DNA of 64,000 bases from Amphibalanus amphitrite. Taxonomy: Eukaryota > Arthropoda > Thecostraca > Balanomorpha > Balanidae. The translations under genes and the position numbers were made by a program. Shown here in pieces: positions 3,641-39,919 of the stretch (position 1 is the stretch's first letter; each line of letters starts with the position of its first letter). The DNA lies in contig NW_024883116.1 in NCBI RefSeq assembly GCF_019059575.1, positions 62,001 to 126,000 of the forward strand. Reading direction: 5' to 3'. The notes beneath the pieces are model-generated. The model worked only from the letters and a program-made list of their open reading frames with translations. It was not told the DNA's origin and ran no database searches.

Positions 3641-4107
3641 TGACACCGTTGAGGTGACACCTAAGAGGGGTGTTTTTTTAGGCGTACCAAAAACGCGCAG
3701 TTTCCAGGAGTCCGATTACACCCGGAATCAGACACCCCCCGAGGTAATCTGTCTCTGGTTGGGAGTGTATTTTATACCACATGTCGTCAAAAGATTCCCG
3801 GAATCATACACCGTGTGGGATCAAAATACACCCTCAAAATCCGATTGCTCCCTGAAGTGACACCTGAAAGGGGTGTTTTTTGAAGCGTACCAAAAACGCG
3901 CAGTTTCCAGGAGTCAGATTACACCCGGAATCAGACTATTATGACTCTGATTTGGGGTGTATTTTTATTCCATAAGGCGTATGATTCCGGGAATCATTTG
4001 ACGCCGTACGGTATAAAAATACACCCTCAACCAGTGTCATAATACCCTAGAAAGTGTCTGATTCCGGGTGTAATCGGACTCCAGAAAACTGCGCGTTTTT
4101 GGTACGC
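3640..4107. repeat. Inverted and tandem repeat block with GCGTACC ends
   Basis: GCGTACCAAAAACGCGCAG occurs directly at 3682-3700 and 3885-3903 and inverted at 4089-4107. Each is joined to CAGGAGTC(C/A)GATTACACCCGG. The spacer carries GGTGTATTTT(A/T)AT and GGAATCATTTGACACC words shared with the 1.1-kb foldback. It abuts the next element at 4107 and is probably a related miniature element. Confidence 0.6.
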
Positions 4108-5890
4108 ACTGAAAACTTTTTTACCATTTCCTAGGGGGTAAACCCGCCATAGCATGGTAGCTTGACACACAGACGTTTTTTACCACCTTCCAGATGGTAC
4201 ATTTTACTCTTTCATGGAGAGTAAACTCGTCAGGGAGGGGTAACGTGACACCCAGACGTTTTTTACCATCTTCTGTATGGTAAACTCTTTTGATTTACTC
4301 TCGTCTAGAGGGTAACATTTTCGGAAGTTACGCTCTGTGGAAGGGTATCTCTTTAATGTGACCCTCCTCTAAAGAGTAGCATGCCATCTACTCTGTGATT
4401 AACCCTCTTACAGAGAGTATACCCTTCTGGCTTACCCTCAGTCATATGGTAATGCTTACTCTTCCCCAAAGAGTTTACCCTCCAGAGGATGGTAGCTTGA
4501 CACACAGACGTTTTTTACCACCTTCCAGATGGTAAATTTTACTCTCTCATGGAGAGTAAACTCGTCAGGGAGGGGTAACGTGACACACAGACGTTTTTTA
4601 TCATCTTCTGTATGGTAAACTCTTTTGATTTACTCTCGTCTAGAGGGTAACATTTTTCAAAGTTACACGCTGTGGAAGGGTAACTCTTTAACGTGACCCT
4701 CCTCTAAAGAGTAGCATGCCATCTACTCTGTGCTTTACCCTCTTACATAGAGTATATCCTTCTGGCTTACCCTTAGTCACATGGTAATGTTTACTCTTTC
4801 CTTTAGTGTAAATCCCCCAGAGGATGGTAACGGACCCACAGACGCTTTCTTCAGAAGCTTCGCGAAGCTTCTGTTAACCGGAGTTCATCAACTAAAAACA
4901 TGATTCCAGAGCAACAATATATTTGGCATGCCGTACAAACAATACGGGGGGATTTACCAGCCATGAACATTGTGAGACTCTCCACTTAATCATACGGAGT
5001 TATAACTCCGTATGAATAAGTGGAGAGTCTCACAATGTTCATGGCTGGTGAACCCCTCGTATTGTTTGTACGGAATGCCAAATATATAGTGTTGCTCTTG
5101 AAGCATGCTGATTAGCTCCGGTTATCAGAAGCTTCGCGAAGCTTCTGAAGAAAGCGTCTGTGGGCCCGTTACCATCCTCTGGGGGGGTTTACACTAAAGG
5201 AAAGAGTAAAATCACCATGTGACTAAGGGTAAGCCAGAAGGATATACTCTATGTAAGAGGGTAAAGCACAGAGTAGATGGCATGCTACTCTTTAGAGGAG
5301 GGTCACGTTAAATAGTTACCCTTCCACAGCGTGTTACTTCGAAAATGTTACCTTCTAGACGAGAGTAAATCAAAAGAGTTTACCATACAGAAGATGGTAA
5401 AAAACGTCTGTGTGTCACGTTACCCCTCCCTGACGAGTTAACTCTCCATGAGAGAGTAAAATTTACCATCTGGAAGGTGCTAAAAAACGTCTGTGTGTCA
5501 AGCTACCATCCTCTGGGGGGTAAATTCTTTGGGGAAGAGTAAGCATTACCATTTGACTGAGGGTAAGCCAAAAGGGTATACTCTCTGCAAGAGGGTAAAT
5601 CACAGAGTAGATGGCATGCTACTCTTAAGAGGAGGGTCAGTTAAAGAGTGACCCTTCCACGGCGTGTAACTTCGGAAATGTTACCCTCTAGACGAAAGTA
5701 AATCAAAAGAGTTTACCATACAGAAGATGATAAAAAACGTCTGTGTGTCACGTTACCCCTCACTGACGAGTTTACTCTTCATGAAAGAGTAAAATTAACC
5801 ATCTGGAGGGTGGTAAAAAACGTCTGTGTGTCAAGCATACCATGCTATGGCGGGTTTCCCCTTCAGGAAATGGAAAAAAAGTTTTCAGTG
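4107..5890. mobile_element. 1.78-kb foldback element with CACTGAAAAC ends
   Basis: Near-palindromic over its whole length: arms 4107-5002 and 5003-5890, centre CGGAGTTATAACTCCG. The left end CACTGAAAACTTTTTTACC matches the reverse complement of the right end. Each arm holds two direct copies of a roughly 335-bp unit (from 4157 and 4491) built from GATGGTA and GAGTAAA words. Two exact copies of the 22-bp palindrome with half-site CAGAAGCTTCG lie at 4852-4873 and 5126-5147. No coding sequence and no clear target duplication. The CACTG end recalls CACTA/Chapaev (CMC) or Transib elements; class unproven. Confidence 0.75.
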
Positions 5891-6045
5891 AACAAAGCGT
5901 TTAGCGATGCACACGCGGTAAATAAACATTACGATACAACTTGAATACAACTTAAATATGAACACTTTAAATGAATACTTGAATATAAATAATAATAAAG
6001 CTCCCTCGAATTGGATAAGGCACAGCGCACAACATTTGAAGTGAA
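5891..6045. other. Spacer between CACTG-ended elements
   Basis: AT-rich 155-bp spacer with no recognisable feature, lying between two CACTGAAAAC-type termini. Confidence 0.5.
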
Positions 6046-6610
6046 CACTGAAAACAAAATTACCCATGGGTGATGAGTAAACTCATGAACCGGCGGTAAT
6101 TTTAAACAACCTATTTGACTGCTCGAGGCGCCGGTAATGTAACTAGGCCTGCACCGGTCATTCCACCTCTCAATTGTGCGTTAACTCATGTCTCTTCACT
6201 CGTGTATTATGAGTTAACCGATTGTGAAAAACTCATGTACTCTTGGTAACTCATTTTGATTACTCATGATATGCGAGTATAGGCTTACTCATATTACACC
6301 GTTAATGAAGACACCACACGTTTGACTACATGAGGCGCTAGTAAATGTTACTAGCCCTGTAGCGGTCACATCACCAATGAGTTGCGGGTTAACTCTCGTT
6401 CCCTCACTCATACCACATGAGTTTACCGTTTGTGACGAATTCAAGCATTGCTAGTAACTCATGCCATGAAACGATTGATACGCGAGTTAAATGTAACTCA
6501 TAACATGATGGTCAAGTGAACACACCTATTAGATCGCTCTGCCGCCGGTTTTTCCACTCTGTCGACTCATCCCCTGGCGGTCAGCCTCACCCATGAGATG
6601 AGAGTCATAA
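6046..6610. repeat. ACTCATG-rich terminal block, left
   Basis: After the CACTGAAAAC end come two diverged direct copies of a roughly 215-bp unit. Each runs from a GACT(G/A)C(T/A) word through GAGGCGC(C/T)(G/A)GTAA and CGGTCA to ACTCAT(G/A)-type words. Related to the block ending at 14185. Confidence 0.55.
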
Positions 6611-6625
6611 CATTAAAACATAAGG

Positions 6626-6631
6626 TTTATT
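6626..6631 (-). terminator. AATAAA polyadenylation signal
   Basis: On the minus strand TTTTAATAAACC lies about 235 nt beyond the stop codon of the terminal exon at 6863, a normal distance for an animal 3' UTR. It supports this exon being the last. Confidence 0.5.
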
Positions 6632-6862
6632 AAAACAATGCATAGCATGCAAATAAACCACGACTATTACATCATTGATCATATGAACAAGGGTGATGAA
6701 CACAGCACGACGCTCATGCCCTTCCAGACATGAACTTGGCCTACACGCATGAAAAGGCGTTAACGCCATTTCTTTGCAAAACTATACCCGGCAGAAACAT
6801 GCAAACACAAAAAGAGACAGAAAGTCCCTAAAGTGCTGCCTCATGTCCCTCCCCGTGCACTC

Positions 6863-7219
6863 CTAAACGCAGCCGGTCATCGCCGCCCACTGCTTTGGGG
6901 GCGGCGACACATCGGTCTTCAGGATCACGGCACACATCAGGTAGCCGGCCAGACGGATGGCTGGGCGGTTGAACGACTGCGCAAACACTGTGAACGCGGC
7001 CCCCCACGTCAGCAGCTTGTTCACCTTTGCCGTTAGCTCCTTAAACTGCACTGCTGGCACGCCCTCTATGGCGTGGAAGTCGTCCGCCACATGAGGCCGT
7101 GGCTGCGGCGCCGATGTGAACACAACTTGGTGCTCTTTAGCACGGTGCAGAGAAGATGGTCGATCGCATCGTCTGCGACGGAAAAATTTACCTTCAGAAA
7201 TCAAGGCCACGAACTGCAA
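6863..7219 (-). CDS. Terminal coding exon of unidentified spliced gene
   Basis: A minus-strand frame closed by TAG at 6865-6863. Its last 90 or so codons are strongly GC-ending (runs of CTG, GCC, GTG, ATC, AAG), the clearest coding signal in the window. It includes HVADDFHAIEGVPAVQFKEL, then KVNKLLTWGAAFTVFAQSF and ends KQWAAMTGCV. The ATG-less upstream part to 7219 is probably intron. Plausible acceptors are CTAAAG at 7135 (exon from 7134, phase fits the exon at 9953-10085) or CGCCGCAG near 7107. A 3' UTR with AATAAA follows. I do not recognise the family; no transposase motif is visible. Confidence 0.6.
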   Translation of the reverse strand: MQFVALISEGKFFRRRRCDRPSSLHRAKEHQVVFTSAPQPRPHVADDFHAIEGVPAVQFKELTAKVNKLLTWGAAFTVFAQSFNRPAIRLAGYLMCAVILKTDVSPPPKQWAAMTGCV

Positions 7220-7339
7220 ACTTTAATTTGGTACAGTATGCCTCTCGCAATTTTAACCCACGTCTAATTTGGCCAAATCTGCACCTAATCTCTTTTACAG
7301 CAAATATCTGTATTTTATGAATTTATTTCAGTGTTTTCA

Positions 7340-8214
7340 TCGATGATACTCTCTGATGATATGGTAAAGCAGGCATATAAGCAATTAGTGCAACCACACT
7401 TAACATGAAAATGGCACCCGTGATCCCGTTTTATGCCCCTGATGACATCTCAGGTCACGAATGGTATCTGACAGTTTTTCGCGAAGAACTTTTGATAGAG
7501 GCATAGAACGATGAAAACACCTTCGTTGTGTTCATCTCGACGAACGGATCAACTGATGTGCAACCTGACCTTTATCGGTCAGGTTCGCTACTGAGAACTA
7601 CCTACCTTGAACTACCTTGAACTACCTTGAACTGAGGTCAAATTTTTAAGTTAACCTTTCAAGGTCACATAATAGTTTATTCAATGCGTCTTGCCGAGAG
7701 AAACACGATTCCGGTAAAAGAAAGCACGTGAAAGGCTTAAGTCAAAAGTTTTTGCTGAAAAACTTTCAGAAAAAAAAAATATATCTATTTTGGCAGTTTT
7801 TACCCCTCCCCCGCATGCAAAACCACTGACGGCAGGTCAAATCTGAGAGAATTAATCAGAAAGAGCGTTAATGGGCTATCAAAGGCGCTTTTATGTGGTT
7901 TTGTAGCTCTATTAGTTTCCGAGCTATGCGTTGATCTGACCAAAATTTGAATGTTGTCAAAAATTGAAAATTATCAAAATTTAACCTGGAAATCGGTGAA
8001 CTTTTGCATTCAATGACCTCTTGTGACCTGACCTTTGACCTGACCAAAAAAGTGACCGAAATAATTTCTTCCTTATTTTTGACGTCCTTTCGAACGCCGC
8101 CTTCGCCGTATCGCTACATGGCCCAGGAGCTAAGTTAAAAGGGGGGTTCAAACGTTTCCTCCCCCCCCCCAGCAGGGCCTGGAAATCCAGGAACTCCCGC
8201 GGGGTGCGGGTTAG
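7340..8214. mobile_element. Old, truncated copy of the 39920-type TTAA element
   Basis: From CATGAAAATGG through ACGAATGGTATCT and AGTTTTTCGC to GGCCCAGGAGC and the C-tract, this matches the right part of the element at 39920-41939, with many substitutions. It ends GTGCGGGTTAG, a decayed GGGTTAA terminus. The left part is missing. It lies in the intron of the minus-strand gene. Confidence 0.65.
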
Positions 8215-8330
8215 AAGATGCTTGTGAGCATAACATTAAAATATGTTTAGAGTAAATAGTGCTCGCATATATTACTTTCAAATTGACGATAAAAATGTGT
8301 TAATCACACTCAATGCCTATAGGTATTGAG

Positions 8331-8358
8331 TATCCACTGTAGTTTACTACAGTGGATA
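8331..8358. other. Perfect 12-bp hairpin
   Basis: TATCCACTGTAG, loop TTTA, CTACAGTGGATA. Intronic; function unknown. Confidence 0.7.
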
Positions 8359-8466
8359 TAACGATGAACTTCTATGATCTCTTATAAGAAGCACGAATGA
8401 AATTTTACATTTTTCTACTCTTTTTTAAATACTTTCCGTGTAAGTGTATACGAGTATATCAAACTG

Positions 8467-9870
8467 TTAAAGGGACTATCCCACCTTCTAAAATGTTGTT
8501 AAAACCAGTTAAATTGTGCCCGACTTTATAGATTGGATGACCAGGAACACGGTTCTGGCATTTATTTTTCATTAAACATCTTAGGCTTCCCATATTCCAA
8601 ACACAAACTTTCAAATATGTGACGTCACAGCCCAAAATTACCTCCTTCCCCAGGCCACATTACTGTCATAAAGCTGATTCTTTTTACTCTGTAGGCACCA
8701 CAACAAAGTTCAGACCAAGTTTTAAGCGATTTTTCAACGAACAAACCCATTTAAATCAGAATGACTAAACGAGGTGACGTCACACTAACGGTCGCTCCAT
8801 GTTGAAGATAGGGCCTTGTACAAGGCCCATTTTCAAATGAAGGGAACGAATTTCTTCAACACCAAGAGGCCGCGGGGGTTGCAACCTAGATAGACAGTGG
8901 TTTCTGAACCTCGCCGCAAACTTGGCTATCTCAACTCAAACCCCATGTTAACCCTCGCATGTGTAGGGGGGGGGGGTCGGATGGACCCCCCCCCATGGTT
9001 TTTCGCGAATAACTCGCGTAAAAAGCGGCCGATCGCGACGAAACTTTCAGTACCCTCGCATTGATCAATTTGACACCTACCCTGAAAATTTCATGACCCT
9101 GACCCAAATGACCTTTGACCTGTGACCTCTTTTCCGAGACCATGTTTGGCCGGAATCGCGATTCGGCGTACGTCGGCTCGCATTAGCCGCGCGTTTGCAA
9201 GCTTTTCGTGGTTTCAAACGTTCAAACATGTGATTTGATGTTGCTCCCATGCATTAGGGCGGGTGTCAAGGTCACCTGAAGGTCAGGTCAGGTCATTGAC
9301 CTTTGGTGACCTCGGGTGACCTCGGTTCACTTTTTCGAGTTTTACATGTTTCTAGGCTAGTTTTTGGAGCTGAATTCGAATTTAGCAACCATTTGAACAT
9401 TTACGAAGTAGTTTTGGTGCCTTCGTAACATGTTACGAAGCTGTCAGAGGCGGTTGACACGTACTACGAATACCCGTCACGACGCCTACTGATTGACCTG
9501 ACCTGACCTGACCCGACCTGGTCTAAATGCTTAAAGACATCATCTGTGATCAAAACTAATACGATATTCGTGATCAGCACCCCGAAAAACCCATTAGCAG
9601 CCACACTTTACGACTTTCTAATAGGTCCCGATTTTCCCGGCTTTGGGTCATTGACCTGACCTGGAAGGTCAACCAATGACCTAGGACCTTAAAATTGGGT
9701 ATCATCGGCTTCCTCTCGTCACGGGCAACACGCTCGTTTTTCCGCGAAGCTCTAGCTCGATCAGGGGCCAAACGGCAAGGGGGGGGGGGTCCAACCGACC
9801 CCCCCCTACACATTAGAAGCTGGAAAACGCCGCACACATGCGAGGGTTAAAGGTGGGATAGTCCCTTTAA
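8467..9870. mobile_element. TTAA element with AGGGAC ends, split by a nested insert
   Basis: TTAA at 8467-8470 is followed by AGGGACTATCCCACCTT. The mirror end AAGGTGGGATAGTCCCT is followed by TTAA at 9867-9870. A second copy without the nested insert is at 50068-50553. The body includes the palindrome GGGCCTTGTACAAGGCCC near 8812. It has no coding sequence and lies in an intron of the minus-strand gene. Confidence 0.85.
8948..9850. mobile_element. TTAA element with CCCTCGCATG ends, nested
   Basis: TTAA at 8948-8951, inverted ends CCCTCGCATGTGT and ACACATGCGAGGG, TTAA at 9847-9850. A G-run/C-run hairpin sits just inside each end and the body is rich in AGGTCA half-sites. The paralogue at 50531 has the same junction with a single TTAA, so insertion into TTAA is shown directly. 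The right end shares the CGCTCGTTTTTCCGCG block with the element at 50674-51713. No transposase. Confidence 0.9.
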
Positions 9871-9952
9871 TAGGACGTTCATAAATACATGAGCTTTTGG
9901 TACCTATTCGGTTACGGTTCCAACATTTCCGGGTAAAATGTTGTTAACTTAC

Positions 9953-10085
9953 CATCTGTGAGGCATCCAGCTGCTCTTTCACCTTCGCCATTGGCCACAA
10001 TCGGGGTCATGGCTTCCCGGGAGAGTTCCAACTCGTTGGTGTCCTGCAAGTCGGCATTTTTTATCCGACTCAGCTCTTTCCAGAC
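9953..10085 (-). CDS. Internal exon of unidentified spliced gene
   Basis: Consensus sites bound a 133-nt exon on the minus strand: acceptor TTGTTTTCAG and donor ATG then GTAAGT. The phase-0 frame is fully open and GC-ending. It begins VWKELSRIKNADLQDTNELE, continues to MTPIVANGEGERAAGCLTD, and leaves phase 1, which fits an acceptor at 7135. A second frame has an in-exon ATG (MAKVKEQLDASQM, phase 0 at the donor) after several stops. Codon usage favours the first. Family not recognised. Confidence 0.6.
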
Positions 10086-10880
10086 CTGAAAACAAAGGAT
10101 TAATGACGCATGCTGAAGGACGACTATACTAGTAAGACGCCATCAATATTCGCATGGCCGGCTTAAATTCTTCTACTTCTTACTGCAGCGTCTGAAAATT
10201 AACTGCCAATCCAGTTCCGTTATCGGTGGTCATGCAAATGCGATGTCACACAAGCACATCTGTTTTACAGTAGCATTAGTAACTCTCGCAATCCCTACCG
10301 TGCGGCGGACATGACTCTGGGGTTATGCATGCATTGTCGGTATAAGTACAGACTTGTGCCTCAGCCAAAAATCAAGATCCAAGATCCGCAAGATCCCATG
10401 CAATGCCAGGATTTCAGAATACTGGATCTCCTTGATCTCATTGAAAAATATAATATAATTTTAGGATCCAAGATCCCCTGGATCGCACGTATAAATAACG
10501 CTTTAGGATTCCGGACCCCACGCGAGAACGAAATGCCAGAGTTCAAATTTCCTGGATCCAACGTAAATGTCATGTCTGTAGACATAAAATTAAGCGTTAA
10601 GTTTGAACTTTAGGGCCAGCGAAGCAGGTTGTGCACAAAGACTTCTTAAACAACCTTGTACGCCTCGCTAATGCAAAGCATTTTGAAATTTAGCAAGAAA
10701 AATGTGTTCTCAGAGACTAAATGTAGGATACAAGATCCCCAGAATCAATCCACAGAGCAAAAATGTAAGATTCAAGATCGCCGGTATTCATCGACGAAAG
10801 AAACATGTTGGATCAAGGACCAGCAGGGTCTCCAAAAAGTATTGATGAATTTATAACCAGTAAAACGCCTTTTGGGCGAA
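10086..10880. other. Intron sequence, no gene recognised
   Basis: Contains recurring degenerate words such as CAAGATC, GGATC and TCCAAGATCCCC between 10370 and 10830, suggesting an old dispersed or tandem repeat. Overlapping open frames on both strands lack exon signals. Confidence 0.4.
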
Positions 10881-11610
10881 GAACGAGCGAGCGAGATAGT
10901 GAGCCCTGCACGTGCGGAAAGGCGAGAGGGTACTTCCAACGGGCTTGTGCAAAGCACCCTTCTAACCGGTTGCTAGCGGTGTGCCAAATTTGAACGCAAT
11001 CGGCCCAGCCTTTCCTGAGATCTGGAAGCAGCATTCTGCACGTGCGCACGTGCAAACGGGGTCCAAACTGACTTTTGCACGGCACCCCACTAACTGGTCC
11101 CCAACCGTGTACCAAATTTGAGCGCAATCGGCCCAGCCGTTCTCGAGATCTGGAAACGCCCCCTGCACGTGCGCACGTGCAGTAGCACCCTAACCGCAAC
11201 ACATGGGAATGCATTGCCTGGTGGGTGCCTACCTGTATGCCAAGTTTCAGCGAAATCGCCCCAGTAATTACCGAGTTACTGAAATGGGAACAAATTTGGC
11301 ACCTCTTATTGTTGTATTTTGCACGTGCAGTGGGGGTCACTCACATAGATGAAGAGTATCCGACCATTGGTAGAAGGGATGCAGCTACCCTACAAAAATT
11401 ACCGCAAGTCAATCGCCCAAGCGGCTGCTGATATATGAGCCTCTCAAAATCACTACTTTTGCAAAACAGCTTGAACACCCTTGACTTTTCACGTGGCACG
11501 TGCCACGACGGTCACTGAGATGTATCAAAAGTAGTCAATTACGGGGTAGAAGGGATGGGGCTACCCAACAAAAAAGACCGCAGGCCAATCGGTCCAGCGG
11601 TTGCTGAGAT
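10880..11610. repeat. Degenerate tandem repeat with CACGTG ladder
   Basis: About five diverged units at 125-160-bp pitch. Each carries a GCACGTGC-type palindrome (near 10908, 11037, 11166, 11323, 11493) and the sentence CCAAATTTG(A/G)(A/G)CGCAATCGG then CCCAGCC(T/G)TT. A reverse-oriented fragment of the same family is at about 26945-27150. E-box words recur at fixed spacing, but no function is shown. Confidence 0.6.
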
Positions 11611-11633
11611 ATAAGCCTCTCAAAAGCGTTACA

Positions 11634-11668
11634 GGCCGGGCCGGGCCGGGCCGGGCCGGGCCGGGCCG
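11634..11668. repeat. (GGGCC)7 microsatellite
   Basis: Seven uninterrupted copies of a GGGCC pentamer, able to form very GC-rich structures. Confidence 0.95.
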
Positions 11669-12016
11669 CTCATACTGAGATTTTTCCGTTATATTGAAAA
11701 GACTCACTTCGCTCGCTGCGCTCGCTCGCTCGTAATCAGATAGAAGAATTGCGCTCTTGGATCCTGTGGATCGAATCATTTTCGGATATTGGCCCTAGTC
11801 TGTCGGTAACAAAGGCAGGGGAAACAAAATACACATGAGGGCGGGTGCAAAATAACTCAAGATGAGCTTCAGAAAGAAAACTGACTCTGAGAGCCGGTGA
11901 AGGCGCGTCTGCAGTTGCACGCACCAAACCACCTGACTCTGACTGCATAGGATCGCTAATTTACAACGCATCAGACCATGTACAATGATTCATGTTATCT
12001 ATGACAATGTACATAC

Positions 12017-12113
12017 TTTGTTTTCATTGACGACGGATGGTGGCCATCGGGATTTTCCTCTTGACGATGAGGTGTCGCCTCTCTGAGAAAGTGGCCTCCA
12101 TGGCACCGTCCAG
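12017..12113 (-). CDS. Internal exon of unidentified spliced gene
   Basis: Minus-strand acceptor CATCTCCTCAG and donor AAA then GTATGT bound 97 nt. The frame best supported by codon usage starts at phase 0 (LDGAMEATFSERRHLIVKRK, then IPMATIRRQ) but meets TGA 9 nt before the donor. It joins in phase to the open frame ending at 13623. A different frame (phase 2 to 0, containing WPPSVVNENK) runs through into the exon at 9953-10085. Either there are two products, alternative splicing, or decay. ATG in perfect Kozak context (GCCATGG) lies inside. Confidence 0.5.
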
Positions 12114-12462
12114 CTGAGGAGATGAGAACATCATGATAGAATCAATTCGACCATGCCTGGTATCTAGATCTCACTCTTGGGGGGTGCAGGGATGGGCTTT
12201 TAGAAGAAGCACTTGGGGTGCTCATTTTTAGAAGGATTCGGCCAAATGATTCAATTACAAGTCGTTTATTACAAAAATACTAGACGAACTACGAGGAAGA
12301 TGAAAAACATGATGAAAAGCTGACCTAGCCTTACCTTATAACCTACTAACTAGACCTTACAACCTAAATAGGTACCTACAATCTACCAGCCTACATCTTA
12401 CAACATACAACCTTCCACATGCCTACCACTCGAACTTCATTTGCACATATACCACCTATCCT

Positions 12463-12939
12463 CATGCGCGGATACAAGGGGGGGGGGCCATGGGGGCCAT
12501 GGCCCCCCCCTTGGCCGATTTTTTCAAAAATAAAATAAAAAGTTAAAAAGTTAAAAAGCTGAAAAGGGGGCCTCCTGAAAATAAAGTGGCCGAAATCCGA
12601 TGAGTTTTTTTTTTTTAACCTACCCACTTAGTTATTTCTTAGAAGACTAGCTGAGAAGACTTCTTTGTTAGAAGATTGGTAAAGCTTTTCATAACTTGGA
12701 GGTCTCTTATACTCACAGAGATGACCACTTTTACAGGGCCTCCTAACCTGCACAGAGGGCCTCCAAGCCTGCACAGATGTTGAGATGTTGCCTGAACAGC
12801 TAGATAAGCTCAATAGACGCAGTTTTTTTGGGGGGGGCCAACAAGTGGGAAGATGGGGCCTCCAACAGGTGGGATTATGGGGGGGGGCCTCCTGGTTTCT
12901 AATGGCCCCTCCCTTGGAGATTTTCTGGATCCGCCCCTG
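12463..12939. mobile_element. hAT-type miniature element with 8-bp TSD
   Basis: The same octamer CCTATCCT flanks both ends (12455-12462 and 12940-12947). Termini are CATGCGCGGATACAAGG and CTTGG...GGATCCGCCCCTG, the CAGGGGCGGATCC type known for hAT MITEs, followed inward by G-runs and C-runs. There is no coding sequence. Its body resembles the hAT-like element at 34999-35301. It lies in the first recognised intron of the minus-strand gene. Confidence 0.9.
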
Positions 12940-13159
12940 CCTATCCTAACCTATAGATGTTTGCACCAGGGTTTGAGCATTAGGGGCTGGCAGAAATAGA
13001 TGCTATAGGCAAAGGCTTAAAGAAAATACTTGATGTTTAATTATTCTGTTAGGCTTCACGCAGGCAAAGCTGCCCGTAGAATAACAGGTTAGGTTTCACT
13101 GTAGGGGCATGTTGAGCATGACTGATATGATATTCCACATTTTGATGGATATTATGAAC

Positions 13160-13390
13160 CAAATAGTAAGAAAATTAACCTCACTCTCATTCTATCTAAA
13201 AGTAAATTCCGGATTCGAAATAAAACAAACTTTTTGAGAAGCTTTCGGCATTGCGCCATCATCAGCTCTCTAAGGAATTGAGAGCTGATGATGGCGCAAT
13301 GCCGAAAGCTTCTCAAAAAGTTTGTTTTATTTCGAATCCGGAATTTACTTTTAGATAGAATGAGAGTGAGGTTAATTTTCTTACTATTTG
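13160..13390. repeat. Perfect 111-bp hairpin
   Basis: Arms 13160-13270 and 13280-13390 are exact reverse complements, with a 9-nt loop TAAGGAATT. No mismatch was seen over 111 bp, which implies very recent origin or active gene conversion. Transcription of either strand through the host intron would give a long perfect stem, a possible hairpin-siRNA source. It has no similarity to the other foldbacks here. Confidence 0.9.
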
Positions 13391-13622
13391 TTACAATGTC
13401 TCTCAAGTTAGCGTTGAAACATATTCAAGATATTATGAACCCCTCAAAAAGGCTTTCATGTTATAGACAATACATAACTAGGAGGGTCAACGAACCCACA
13501 GGACAACCCAAGGTATCAGTAGTGTTGTGTGAGTGCACATGTAGGTACATTTTCAATGAAAATATGCATTTTGCACTTAAACATACCTACAGGCAATAAA
13601 ATACGTAACATTTAACACTCAC

Positions 13623-13716
13623 CAGTCGCTCCAGCCTCCAATTCACTGCGTCCGCCGCGTCCCGTGCTGCACTTCCGGCACAAACATGCAAGATGGCGTC
13701 ATGGCGGTAATATTAA
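13623..13716 (-). CDS. First recognised exon of the spliced gene, boundaries partial
   Basis: Donor GCGACTG then GTGAGT at 13622 is consensus. The frame in phase 0 at the donor is open back to about 13716 and reads CAGSAARDAADAVNWRLERL at its end, with GC-ending codons. It has no ATG, so an upstream exon or an internal acceptor (GTGCAG near 13665) is needed. The same bases contain CCGGAAGTG and its plus-strand neighbourhood has AAGATGGCG, motifs of ETS and YY1 type common at animal promoters, so this could instead be an untranslated first exon. Confidence 0.4.
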
Positions 13717-13799
13717 CGCGTAAGGCTTGTGTAAAGCAGCTCATGGATAATTCACGGTTGATCATATTTACCGGCGCATCATTGGTTTCCTTAAGCTGC

Positions 13800-14185
13800 G
13801 TTTGACGAGTTAATGATTTCAAACTGGTTTTTGAACTCATTACTCACGAACAATGAGTTAGCAAGAATCCCTGTCCTCTTTTTCATGAGTTCTTAAACCC
13901 AAACGTTCAGTTTCACTAACTCACGGGTCGTGAGTACATTCCTTACTCGCCTTACATGAGTTTGCGAGACTCAACAGGGAGGTTTGATACCAATGTTTTG
14001 TGCGTCATGAGTCAGGCAACTCATAGGGAGAAGGTCATGCATTTGGGCAATTGAGTTTTCAAAACGAGTAAACTTTTACTCTTGAGTGTTAACGCTCCAC
14101 GCATGAGTTACTCATCCAAATATACTCATGAATGGCGAGTCAAATATGAATTACTCTCCCCTCATGGGTAGATTTGTTTTCAGTG
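13800..14185. repeat. ACTCATG-rich terminal block, right
   Basis: Dense ACTCATG/CATGAGT words ending in CCCTCATGGG and TTGTTTTCAGTG at 14185, the inverted partner of the end at 6046. Confidence 0.55.
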
Positions 14186-14590
14186 AACGGCAGCGTTCCT
14201 GGATTGTCGCCCGTCTACGTGGGATAATTAAACTGCATCACTACAGTGCATGGCTTTTTCTAAGTCGCCAACAAAATGCATCACAACAAAATGTATGTAC
14301 CTACTTACAACACTCTGCCACGTGGCCGTGCACGGGGTTCTGTTAGCCAGATCAAACAAGCACCACTCAACAGCACGCAATGCTCTATCACATCGGTACT
14401 TACAATAAAATGTCCGCAGAGGCTCTATAGGCGATGAACAGCACACAAGCACAATCACCAACGGCCACGTGGCGCCGCACCGACACTGCTCACACCCTCC
14501 CTCGGAGACCAACGACGGAAAACTGACAGATGCGCGCGCGCCGCGCGGCCTTCAACCTTCAAACGGCCGATCTTGTTTTTGATTGGCTGA
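14186..14590. other. No gene recognised
   Basis: Unique-looking sequence with a CG-rich patch near 14532 (GCGCGCGCGCCGCGCG). The overlapping frames on the two strands lack exon signals. Confidence 0.35.
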
Positions 14591-14599
14591 TTGATACTC

Positions 14600-14932
14600 T
14601 TTCAAATATTGTCTTCACGAGGGTAAACAAGATCCACGCATGAAACGACCACCTGCACACGAGGCACGATACCCAGGAGGAAAGAGTTTTCGTCATGTCT
14701 AGGATTGCGAGAGTAATATTGATATTTACATGGTAATAACACTCTTTGCTGGCGAATAACTTCAATTGAACCACGTACCGTTACCATGCACATAATGGTA
14801 GCAGCGAGGTACCCTTTCAATATACTCTTATCTTGCGGGTTTGGTGAAAATGAATCCTCCAGGAGGTGGTAAAAAAGTTTTGAGTGCGCTTCAAAAAACA
14901 CCCCTTTTAGGTGTCATTATTTTTTTCAGTGT
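14600..14932. repeat. Solo end of a CACTG-type element plus GGTGTCA module
   Basis: GGTGGTAAAAAAGTTTTGAGTG ends at about 14895 and matches the right end of the 4107-5890 foldback. It is followed directly by GCTTCAAAAAACACCCC, GGTGTCATT and TTTTTTCAGTG, which matches the module at 3857-3890. So the two word-families co-occur here as at 3.6-4.1 kb. Confidence 0.5.
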
Positions 14933-23830: not shown

Positions 23831-24639
23831 GTCCACTGCACCCCGGTGTCGGCGAAATTAAACACTGGCAAATAACTTAAACTATCAATGTCCCCACTTG
23901 AATATTACGTTGTATTGATCTCGATGTAAGGTCCGCTGGTTTAGTTTGCATCGTTTGGGTCGCTTCAATTAGGCATATTGTGAGCCTCGTCATATCTGTT
24001 TGCTCAGTTGTATATGCAATACAGATCCACTTGAGTTAATTTCTTGTTATTTGAAAATCAAGGTAAATCGTTCGGTTGGTGTCGTCACCATCGTTCTGAT
24101 CGAAAGACGTAAATGTAACAAATACAGTCCACTTTTATCAGTAATCACAACACACTGTAATTCCAATTGTCAGCGTCGTTTTTGGCAGAGGAGGTAAATG
24201 AGATCCTACCTAACGGATATAAAAGCACTGTAACGGTAGTCCGGGTCCCACGTAGAGTCAGGAGGGCGTTTTTGCGCCCACGTCCAACTTCACCCCTGGG
24301 CCGTGTCATGTTTCGATAAGCGGTTAGTGTAGTTTTCGAAAGAGTGTAAACATTGGAGAACTTAAATTATTTTTGGGTGCGGTGAGAAATCAGAACGGCA
24401 AAGTTACAACGAATTATTGAAGAAGTCGACTCAAAGCTATTGGAGCTTCAACATCGATTGAAAAATAAAACTGTTGCTCATTTGAAGTTCTTACACTATT
24501 TATAGACTGAGAAGGAATCTAGAATCAACTAATTGGCTTTCAGACAGATTACTTACCTAATGCAAACGTAACCTGTCTGTAAGACTGTAATGCGTTGCAT
24601 CTGACCTCGGTGTCATCGCCGACGATTTTAGGACTAAAG

Positions 24640-24843
24640 TACGTAGGACAAAAGTACGTATGCAAATGTTCGTACGCAAATATACGTAGGCGATAAAGTT
24701 CGTATGCCAAAAGTACGTACGCAAATGTTCGTACGCAAAAGTACGTATGCAAAAGTACGTAGTGCATAAAATACGTATGTCAAAAGTACGTACGCAAATG
24801 TTCGTACGCAAAAGTACGTATGGAAAAGTACGTAGTGCATAAA
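24640..24843. repeat. TACGTA-rich tandem array, segment 1
   Basis: Units built from AAAGTACGTATGC, AAAGTACGTACGCAAATG and TTCGTACGC, higher-order period about 80 bp. All minus-strand frames stay open, giving meaningless YFCVRTFAYVLL-type repeats. Confidence 0.9.
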
Positions 24844-26024: not shown

Positions 26025-26388
26025 AAAGTTCGTATGCTAAAAGTACGTACGCAAATGTTCGTACGCAAAAGTACGTATGCAAAAGTACGTAGTGTAAAAT
26101 GTACGTATGAAAAAAGTACGTACGCAAATGTTCGTACGAAAAAGTTCGTATGCAAAAGTACGTAGTGTATAAAGTACGTATGCCAAAAGTACGTACGCAA
26201 ATGTTCGTACGCAAAAGTACGTATGCAAAAGTACGCAGTGTATAAAGTACGTATACCAAAAGTACGTACGCAAATGTTCGTACGCAAAAGTTCGTATGCA
26301 AAAGTACGTAGTGTAAAAAGTACGTATGCCAAAAGTACGTACGGTTCGTATGCCAAAGTACGTAGTGTATAAAGTTCGTATGCTAGAA
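26025..26388. repeat. TACGTA-rich tandem array, segment 2
   Basis: Continuation of segment 1, same orientation and unit. Confidence 0.9.
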
Positions 26389-30214: not shown

Positions 30215-30595
30215 TTATACCCTACGTAGTACGTACATTTGCTATACGAAGGCTTTTGTACGTGACGTACTTTTGTCCATACGTACTTTATACCCTACGT
30301 ACTTCTGCGATACGTACTTTTGTCCGTGACGTACTTTTGTCCATACGTACTTTTTACCCTACGTACATTAGCTATACGTACTTTTGTCCGTGACGTACTT
30401 TTGTCCATACGTACTTTATACCCTACGTACTTCTGCGATACGTACTTTTGTCCCTGACGTACTTTTGTCCATACGTACTTTATACTGTACGTACTTCTGT
30501 GATACGTACTTTAATCCTACGTACTTTTGCTTACGTACTTTTGTCCTACGTACTTTTGTCCTACGTACTTTAGCGATACGTACTTTTGTCCGTAA
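30215..30595. repeat. TACGTA array, segment 4 (reverse orientation)
   Basis: Higher-order unit of about 75 bp: CATACGTACTTTATACCC, TACGTACTTCTGCGA, TACGTACTTTTGTCCGTGA. Ends at GTCCGTAACCC. Confidence 0.9.
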
Positions 30596-36194: not shown

Positions 36195-37575
36195 GTTACA
36201 GGCAAAGTGAAAACTCGGGCATTTTGCAAAATGCCTAGGCAATTTGCAAAATGCCTGACCGGCCAGGCATTTTGCAAAATGCCTAGGCAGTTTGCAAACT
36301 GCCTGACCCACCAGGCATTTTGCAAACTGCCTGAAATATTTTCTCAGGCATTTTGCAAAATGCCTGACATCAAACTCGCACTAGCGACGATGTATAGGTA
36401 AGCATCATTTGTCACTGCCGCTTACAAAAGTTAATCGCTGTCAATGCGCACAAAGTGAGGGGACACTGCGTTCTCCGGGTAGCGCCGCCGAGTTCAGGTC
36501 ACTGAGCCCCAGCGGCCGTCGGGTGCCGAGCACCGAGCGTGGTTTCGTGGGTAAACATGCGCTCGGTACAATGATTGTACTGTTTCTACGAGCTCTTGGT
36601 GGCTTTTTGAAAATACTATGGGTGGATATTGATCAGAAAAGAATACTCTTCCAATTTACGAAAATTTAATTGTTACACGTTTACATTATCAATCGTCTCT
36701 GCCGTAACAGTTGCCCACCAGGGCAGAATACTGGACATCGCAGCTTTTATACACACGGCTACAACTCCGTATATAGGAAAGGTACGGAGACAGTAGCTCA
36801 AGTCCATTCAGCGGTGGCTCGATCTCGACAGAATTGACGCAAGACGGAGGTATACAGAGTGTCACGAACTTGATACGCGGTTGGCGCGGTCTTGTCCCTC
36901 CATGCCCCTCCTGAGTGCTGAATGGATGCAATTTTAACGGGTCCGGCACCAGGACATCTGGACCAGGGCACTCGGCATCTAAATCGGCCATCCCCCGGTA
37001 TCTGAAGACTTTACCCTGAAGCTGAAGCCGCTCAACCTCAGGCTGCAACCCTGACTTACCGTCGCCCATTAGTGGTGCAGCTGGATTTCGACAAAACCCA
37101 CCAAATCTGGACCATTCAGGACTAGAGACCATTCAGGCCGCGGGGACAGACCACGTGGCCGCTGATAACTTGTCAGCGAGGTGCTGGAGAACACTGACGC
37201 AACTACGATGCAATACATTTCGGGACACAAGTACAACATCCCGCAATAATGTCGTGACACCCTGTATTCGTGACCGTGGAATGTGTCACATGTGCCCACA
37301 ATACATGTGAAATGTGTTGTGGGCACAGTCACAGTGGAACGTTTATGATCAACGCCTGTAGTCAACAAAAACGGTGGAATATATGGAAACTCAGGCATTT
37401 TGCAAAATGCCTGGCGGGTCAGGCATTTTGTAAAATGCCTAGGCAGTTTGCAAAATGCCTGGTGGGTCAGGCAGTTTGCAAACTGCCTAGGCAATTTGCA
37501 AAATGCCTGGCGGGTCAGGCATTTTGCAAATTGCCTAGGCATTTTGCAAAATGCCCGAGTTTTCACTTTGCCTGT

Positions 37576-37578
<3 letters not shown>
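36195..37578. mobile_element. (AT)n-inserted element 2 with palindrome arrays
   Basis: Ends GTTACAGGCAAAGTG and CACTTTGCCTGTAAC, both abutting (AT)n (36183-36194 and 37579-37612). Each end carries about eight palindromes of the type GGCATTTTGCAAAATGCC or GGCAGTTTGCAAACTGCC, separated by TA or short linkers. The interior (36400-37370) is unique-looking and matches element 3 in reverse. Confidence 0.8.
36689..37132 (-). CDS. Hypothetical 147-codon frame inside element 2
   Basis: Open minus-strand frame in the element interior. It contains GGCGACG then GTAAGT near 37065, so the frame may cross a real donor. A TATAAAAG box with CGTGTGTATAAAAGCTGCG lies at about 36757 on the same strand. The homologous part of element 3 (about 38010-38060) has lost the TATA. 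No domain recognised; it may be promoter and leader of a lost element gene rather than coding. Confidence 0.25.
   Translation of the reverse strand: MVSSPEWSRFGGFCRNPAAPLMGDGKSGLQPEVERLQLQGKVFRYRGMADLDAECPGPDVLVPDPLKLHPFSTQEGHGGTRPRQPRIKFVTLCIPPSCVNSVEIEPPLNGLELLSPYLSYIRSCSRVYKSCDVQYSALVGNCYGRDD

Positions 37579-37612
<34 letters not shown>
37579..37612. repeat. (AT)n tract between two inverted elements
   Basis: 34-bp AT tract flanked by CCTGTAAC and GTTACAGG. Together with the palindrome arrays either side this forms a nearly perfect 0.4-kb palindromic junction. Confidence 0.95.

Positions 37613-39919
<2,307 letters not shown>

Follow-up and report, generated by a model that had tools for sequence, protein, structure and literature searches.

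What kind of unit is the 8.1-kb segment that runs from CACTG to CAGTG in this barnacle DNA, and is the spliced gene inside it a transposase or a passenger? The earlier note on the window (the whole stretch of 64,000 nucleotides that was analysed) described a gene-carrying element with matching inverted termini and ACTCATG-type repeats shared by both ends, and both observations held. The CACTGAAAACAAA sequence at 6046–6058 (plus strand) and 14173–14185 (minus strand), which has no other exact match in the window, is the tip of a 35-bp terminal inverted repeat (TIR), and 23 of the 35 ACTCAT/ATGAGT copies of the window fall in two end zones, 6046–6650 and 13780–14185. No structured RNA was matched in Rfam at the gathering score. 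The boundaries were the following:

6044..6045 (no strand): target-site duplication AA, left, 2 bp
6046..14185 (no strand): whole element, CACTG...CAGTG, 8,140 bp, with boundaries common to copies that have unrelated flanks
6046..6080 (plus strand): left TIR, 35 bp, 82.9% identical to the right end (E 2e-6)
6073..6571 (no strand): left subterminal repeat zone, where ACTCAT/ATGAGT occurs in either orientation, with 14 copies in 6046–6650
13780..14150 (no strand): right subterminal repeat zone, with 9 ACTCAT/ATGAGT copies in 13780–14185
14151..14185 (minus strand): right TIR, 35 bp, in the same 82.9% pairing
14186..14187 (no strand): target-site duplication AA, right, 2 bp

Copies were searched in the window's own 807.55-Mb assembly. 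The left end (595-bp query) gave 40 scored matches, 19 of them over the full query, and the right end (586-bp query) gave 27, of which 21 were full-length; the genome thus has some two dozen nearly identical copies of the element. The CACTG...CAGTG ends were exact junctions with unrelated flanks. On the left, the window copy and all 20 loci of the first-read set, loci selected for a match starting at base 1, have CACTG; on the right, CAGTG was found at 13 of 13 ends in that set and 9 of 9 in a later one. A chance TIR is excluded because identity starts and stops at the same bases in copies with different flanks. The target duplication that had been reported as missing is in fact present: AA flanks the window copy on both sides, and a perfect 2-bp duplication was read in 16 of the 20 copies readable at both ends, the dinucleotide not being limited to TA. 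A 3-bp duplication was rejected. The two ends form one unit in the copies bearing duplications, and independent ends were not found, so that the reading as two independent short elements was also rejected. The CACTG-ended element is therefore real. Segmental duplication in place of transposition was rejected for the first-read set, in which the flanks differ beyond the ends; in the later-read set, the two C350 copies may represent such a duplication. Such a young element, with easily read copies, provides clean boundaries and a 2-bp duplication for a CACTA-type family.

The size of about 8.1 kb is correct for the window copy, and the basic size is smaller. The usual length is approximately 5.46 kb (5,415–5,470 bp in six uninterrupted copies), and the window element corresponds to this type with nested insertions added and one internal deletion:

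7264..7265 (no strand): point at which the window lineage lacks about 390 bp that the 5.46-kb copies have
8471..9866 (no strand): nested insertion with AGGGACTATCCC ends and a TTAA duplication, piggyBac/Kolobok-like by its duplication only
10857..11733 (no strand): nested insertion, absent from the 5.46-kb copies
12463..12939 (no strand): nested insertion with the 8-bp duplication CCTATCCT, hAT-like by its duplication only
13161..13430 (no strand): nested hairpin insertion within repeated TATTATGAACC, with two 116-bp arms, 98% complementary
4107..5890 (no strand): separate foldback element next to the 8.1-kb unit, likewise with CACTGAAAAC ends, recognised by repeat I18 and nested inverted repeats

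The flanks of the foldback element, CG on the left and AA on the right, form no 2-bp duplication. The enlarged version of about 8.1 kb was found in five copies with different flanks, two of them read only in part. One of them, L021, aligns with the whole of 6046–14185 at 99.4%. Differences among the window copy, L021, L022 and L023 amount to 0.04–0.29%, compared to 1.15–2.15% between these and the 12 other copies in which over 3,000 bases were aligned. The lineage is marked by 32 fixed differences, and L038 sides with it at all 18 readable ones. The enlarged version has itself jumped, its nested insertions moving together: the 8.1-kb composite has moved as a unit.

The gene was described as a single spliced minus-strand gene fitting between the ends. 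Its parts are:

6626..6631 (minus strand): poly(A) signal AATAAA, read in the sequence
6863..7172 (minus strand): last exon, D, with the stop codon; the acceptor CAG|ACGATGC is common to family 2, a sister transposon family, and 7134 is an alternative start
9953..10085 (minus strand): candidate exon C (VWKELSRIKNADLQDTNELELSREAMTPIVANGEGERAAGCLTD), acceptor TTTTCAG, donor GTAAGT
12017..12113 (minus strand): candidate exon B, with a TGA in one frame and two other frames open
13623..13712 (minus strand): candidate exon A, donor CTG|GTGAGT, uncertain at its 5' limit, the open frames having no start codon

The poly(A) signal and the last exon, which encodes FKELTAKVNKLLTWGAAFTVFAQSF...KQWAAMTGCV, were as described. 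The TGA that had been pointed out in exon B is real in the frame continuing from YYRHDAIL...RLERL, and the same stop is present in L026, a 5.46-kb copy; it can be avoided by another splice or frame. When exon B is skipped (13623/10085, 9953/7134), one frame of the window copy stays open as far as the final stop, and the junctions 13623/12113, 12017/10085 and 9953/7134 are open in another frame that starts just after a stop in exon A. Stop-free splice paths thus exist inside the element, and the part of the description that gained no support is the completeness of the gene: the stop-free paths A-C-D, A-B-C-D and A-B-D have no start codon in exon A. Exon C holds the first methionine of A-C-D and A-B-C-D, and in A-B-D it comes only as exon B ends.

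Could the element then carry a working spliced gene, perhaps read along 13623/10085 and 9953/7134 with a further 5' exon? Its good splice sites and poly(A) signal, the open A-C-D path and the last exon, free of internal stops in 12 of the 13 matches covering residues 1–87 or more, would agree with this. The lack of an exon A start codon in that path speaks against it, as does a break in the exon D frame between DDAIDHLL and EHQVVF, relative to family 2 and to relatives on C950 and C1927. Variants among copies gave no sign of selective constraint, although they are few: 5 synonymous against 11 non-synonymous in exon D (over 68 and 205 sites), 1 against 6 in exon C (30 and 102 sites) and 1 against 6 in exon B (23 and 73 sites), with stops in single copies. 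Codon periodicity gave no consistent signal between L041 and L042 of family 2, where one segment, an intron under the splice reading, had 11 of its 17 changes at a single codon position. We consider a working gene very unlikely. The frame break relative to relatives, set beside paths that avoid the stops, makes decay of the gene likely and leaves it unproven.

The protein pieces had been said to match no familiar transposase, and the profile search agreed: no Pfam family was above the cut-off for the exon pieces, nor for the 10 searched of the 24 L026 open reading frames of at least 55 aa, which gave four DUF or other matches (E 0.04–0.094), all far below the cut-off. Ten window frames outside the gene gave one sub-cut-off match (DUF4736, E 0.13). 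The best PDB matches (E 0.25 or worse) were taken as noise, and of five IMG/VR pattern matches none was confirmed. A single-sequence fold of the last exon, with three helices and a mean pLDDT of 55, was too weak for a structure search. The domain of this exon may have some likeness to the gag-like proteins of DIRS retroelements; we make no claim of it.

The last exon (KVNKLLTWGAAFTVFAQSF) has 87 genome matches at E values up to 10, a result opposite to the single-copy host gene that would have spoken against a mobile gene, as far as this exon is concerned. It is a member of a gene family that is multicopy and in part clustered, and for which neither Pfam nor PDB supplied a name. Many relatives lie outside the transposon copies, at 27–47% identity, with several matches per contig on C428, C556, C1010, C1335, C264 and C1313. 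Relatives at 41% with equal E-values on C264, C414, C545, C1010 and C1954 look like a repeat family. In practice, where gene models of the "KVNKLLTWGAAFTVFAQSF" type recur in many copies in such genomes, they can be passengers of transposons.

Two loci on C172 bear on the origin of the gene. At one, the 3' end of the gene continues without the left end of the element: similarity starts at element base 504 (window 6549), with identities of 57/60 on one side of this base and 14/60 on the other. The second is 86% identical over the coding end, stop included, and has the same stop codon (C172:664.2 kb). The gene end is thus common to both loci, and the absence of the left end was seen at one. The C172 loci may also be another repeat and not a host gene. 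The gene end without the element's left end favours, over a transposase, captured cargo from a multigene family for the gene with its FKEL...LTWGAAFTVFAQ domain; between the unfamiliar transposase and the cargo that had both been proposed, cargo is favoured by this locus and by the multicopy exon family, short of proof.

It is also conceivable that the gene originated within this group of transposons, as the remnant of an accessory protein or of a multi-exon transposase from a larger autonomous CACTG element; its multicopy relatives would then be old copies of such elements. Family 2, whose ends are also CACTGAAAACAAA, carries a homologous last exon in the same orientation, and in both families it lies within approximately 1–1.7 kb of the left end, an arrangement that a native gene would explain as well as capture does; some last-exon relatives also appear dispersed. 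This reading, which we hold to be unlikely, conflicts with the sharp C172 limit at base 504, which excludes the left end, and with the lack of any transposase family in the pieces searched. Nor was a CACTGAAAAC end found on either side of the relatives on C950 and C1927, within the short sequence considered (1,401 and 2,301 bp).

We propose, with a little more than even confidence, that the element is a non-autonomous CACTA/EnSpm (CMC) transposon with a captured gene, decayed or truncated, that was recently amplified. In this model, an ancestor of the transposon and its sister family would have captured a gene of the multigene family at the DNA level, and the gene would then have decayed or been truncated, with loss of function. 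A recent amplification would have followed, and a young sub-lineage including the window copy would have gathered other insertions and kept jumping as an 8.1-kb unit. Between its subterminal zones the element carries a piece of a minus-strand gene, with introns and with a 3' end and a poly(A) signal that belong to it. A transposase supplied by another genomic locus would attach to the ends and the subterminal repeats and move the unit; since no transposase was recognised, the element is probably non-autonomous and mobilised in trans.

CACTA elements are marked by short repeats that lie close to each end in the two orientations, and their classical target duplication is 3 bp. CAGTG/CACTG ends also occur in hAT, and Transib and Chapaev make 5-bp or 4-bp duplications. 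The 2-bp duplication rules out these last two, as well as hAT (8 bp). The CA(C)...(G)TG starts of the TIR, a 2-bp duplication within the 2–5 bp range and subterminal repeats in two orientations are CMC features. For a CMC member, a DDE transposase bearing C(2)C and H(3–4)H motifs is also expected, in the element or in a partner with the same ends; neither a transposase nor an autonomous partner was recognised in the exon pieces and L026 frames searched, so the probable assignment to CMC is drawn from the ends, the duplication and the subterminal repeats. This leaves some room for another cut-and-paste superfamily with coincidental CACTG ends and a 2-bp duplication. We find it improbable, given the dense subterminal repeats and the match of ends and duplication with published animal CACTA elements.

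Ciona ENS1_Cis and CMC MITEs in viral genomes share CAC...GTG ends and a 2-bp duplication with the present element (PMC6004678); no transposase was found here. Hydra Spongebob (EnSpm-4N1_HM, "TRC" group) is similar in its length of about 5.8 kb, 2-bp duplication, unreadable transposase and many copies per genome, whereas its TIR starts with CCC and not CACTG, and the accessible portion describes no internal gene like that found here (PMC4298943). ESTA (EnSpm-like, TA duplication) and other CMCT elements have CA...TG ends and 2–5 bp duplications, and CMCT lineages are known to carry cargo genes in addition to the transposase; these are fungal, with TET/JBP cargo, whereas the 2-bp duplication here is not restricted to TA (PMC12730594). 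Plant Pack-TYPE elements, including Pack-CACTA, are likewise non-autonomous, with TIR, duplication and gene pieces inside (PMC8903248). Here, TIR and duplication are present, the gene end recurs at two C172 loci and the exon is multicopy; this exon is common to two transposon families and its source is unproven, in contrast to the Pack-TYPE elements described from plants. It is possible, at somewhat less than even confidence, that the barnacle element is an animal counterpart of Pack-CACTA, in which a member of a clustered, lineage-specific gene family, with introns and its own poly(A) signal, was captured and carried through two families to about two dozen copies, the nested insertions coming later. 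If the capture is true, exon shuffling of the Pack-TYPE kind, which the report cited for it (PMC8903248) treats in plants, would extend to another kind of genome.

The genome copies settle the reality of the element (window 6046–14185). In the assembly containing the window (G000; 807,550,619 bases, 2,644 contigs), its first 595 bp had at least 40 matching places, 40 of the 53 candidates being scored. At 98–100% identity, 19 of the left-end matches, the window counted, spanned the whole query and one spanned 548 bases. The last 586 bp matched at 27 places, 21 of them whole and one over 582 bases. CACTG and CAGTG were the junctions at which copies met differing flanking DNA, and the CACTG-ended structure proposed in the earlier note was correct. 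The 13-bp terminal motifs occurred within the window as these two exact copies, with no others, and the terminal repeat reached 35 bp with 82.9% identity between the ends. ACTCAT/ATGAGT words were found at 6046–6650 (14 of the window's 35) and 13780–14185 (9 of 35).

The main doubt raised in that note, a missing target duplication, is gone. The search it had suggested for other end pairs found matching copies, of which 20 were read at both ends (two sets, 13 and 7). An identical flanking dinucleotide was present in 16, AA/AA at the window copy and TA, CA, CT, TG, CG, TT, AG or GC at others; it was not matched in L021, L029, C1414 and C590. The target site duplication (TSD) is 2 bp, because the third flanking base differs.

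The six uninterrupted copies measured 5,415–5,470 bp, and L035 was a deletion form of 2,335 bp. Other copies were lengthened by insertions that varied between copies. We take the open frames inserted in copies L036 and L022 to be piggyBac-like and hAT-like, respectively, as judged from translation and not by database. The window copy lacked about 390 bp at 7264/7265 and carried the following extra blocks:

about 7584–7624, extra block
about 8471–9866, extra block
about 10857–11733, extra block
about 12463–12939, extra block
about 13161–13430, extra block

Duplications TTAA and CCTATCCT flanked two of them. All were common to L021 and L023, and were also present in L022 and L038 over their read portions. 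The mutual divergence of the window copy, L021, L022 and L023 was 0.04–0.29%, compared with 1.15–2.15% against the 12 other copies for which over 3,000 bases were aligned. This lineage had 32 group-fixed sites, and L038 sided with the group at 18 of 18 readable. The enlarged copies lay in differing flanks; therefore, the enlarged unit moved as a whole. Judging from end positions, three copies (contigs C590, C199 and C557) now span approximately 20–29 kb, with matching TSDs in C199 and C557 and no match in C590. The family copies at 73.6–78.1 kb and 218.5–224.9 kb of contig C350 had the same eight bases past the right end (AAGGCATT), and are possibly a segmental duplication instead of two insertions.

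The spliced minus-strand gene of the earlier note stood as to its candidate exons, usable splice sites and AATAAA, but not as a complete gene:

3' limit 13623, minus strand, candidate exon A
12113–12017, minus strand, candidate exon B
10085–9953, minus strand, candidate exon C
7172 or 7134 to 6863, minus strand, candidate exon D
6626–6631, minus strand, AATAAA

With the exons joined unchanged, A-B-C-D by the junctions first drawn hit, in one frame, the TGA previously noticed in exon B (12017–12113), but another frame was open, starting right after a stop in A. A-C-D via acceptor 7134 was open from the drawn start of A through to the final stop, and A-B-D via acceptor 7172 was open past a stop near A's start. 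Exon A contained no start codon in the open frames of these three paths, and the gene as drawn is therefore incomplete, yet not proven dead. The first Met was in exon C in A-C-D and A-B-C-D, and at the end of exon B in A-B-D.

A sister transposon family (L041, L042, L045 and L046; ends CACTGAAAACAAATCTACTC; L041 of 3,723 bp with TSD TA/TA) carried a homologue of the last exon, which had the same orientation and likewise the acceptor CAG|ACGATGC. In distant relatives on contigs C950 and C1927, a single frame ran from the acceptor (DEKLAHVLMEMREEHVVF) on into VEGVxVAQF. In exon D of the window, DDAIDHLL and EHQVVF were in separate frames, and in the sister family the DDAVDHLL frame was not continuous with VEFKEL. 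These frame breaks point to a decay of the last exon in both transposon families; acceptor 7134 could sidestep the break in the window copy. Variants among copies were 5 synonymous and 11 non-synonymous in exon D (over 68 and 205 sites), 1 and 6 in exon C (30 and 102 sites) and 1 and 6 in exon B, in the frame with the stop (23 and 73 sites), with stops in single copies; these small numbers gave no sign of constraint after insertion.

With an E-value limit of 10, the last exon (89 aa) had 87 matches, among which 22 contigs were the transposon's own copies, known from end matches. Elsewhere, matches at 71–80% were located on C359, C1797, C172 and C121, and others at 27–47%, several per contig on C428, C556, C1010, C1335, C264 and C1313. 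Five places on five contigs with an identical E-value may represent a repeat family. The relatives L059 and L060, on two contigs of similar sequence, adjoined long CTCTCT-type simple repeats (open frames LSLSLS). LTWGAAFTVFAQ was kept in C950 and C1927, and the CACTGAAAAC end was absent from their fetched 1,401 and 2,301 bp. The element's 3' part matched at two C172 loci approximately 15 kb apart (91% and 86%). At the first, identity was 14/60 up to element base 504 and 57/60 beyond it. The second matched the coding end, stop codon included, with 86% identity over 96 bases. The gene thus goes on beyond the element, and does so with no left end of the element attached. These comparisons favour capture of a multigene-family member by the element. 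A host origin is not proven: C172 may be a further repeat, and the exon is also found in the sister family. The element carries what is probably a gene remnant.

A foldback element at 4107–5890, with 155 bp between it and the left end of the main element, had the same CACTGAAAAC ends but subterminal palindromes of GTAAACTC type; a second foldback nest (3650–4107) adjoined it. At 14847–14916 a CACTCAAAACTTTTTTACC end lay beside TGACACCTAAAAGGGGTGTTTTTTGAAGCG, like the junction at 3853–4137 (repeats I21 and I25), and the two element types seem to stand side by side twice in the window. Upstream of the element in L038 (1–41) and L019 (reverse complement), another CACTG-type end, TTGTTTTCAGTG|TA, was visible 158 bp from the element copy, with a tRNA-like piece (by eye) and ACCCGC/GCGGGT repeats, a third subterminal vocabulary on the same ends. 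Elsewhere in the window, three arrays of 14–15 bp ACGTACTTTTGC-like units (24636–24843, 26025–26343 and 30230–30591) were organised as 73- or 64-bp higher-order repeats, and a palindromic AGGCATTTTGCAAAATGCCT satellite (36218–36334, 37391–37847 and 38911–38997), its longer arrays built of 48-bp units, had AT runs close by.

Pfam assigned no family at its cut-off to the exon pieces, nor to the 10 ORFs searched out of 24 (at least 55 aa) in the 5.46-kb copy L026. The window element is a member of a real, young family, probably CACTA-type and probably non-autonomous, of a class already known. Several animal CACTA elements share its CA(C)...(G)TG ends and 2-bp TSD: a 2-bp TSD is described for Ciona ENS1_Cis and viral CMC MITEs (PMC6004678) and for Hydra Spongebob (PMC4298943), and CA..TG ends with a TSD of 2–5 bp for the CMCT clade (PMC12730594).
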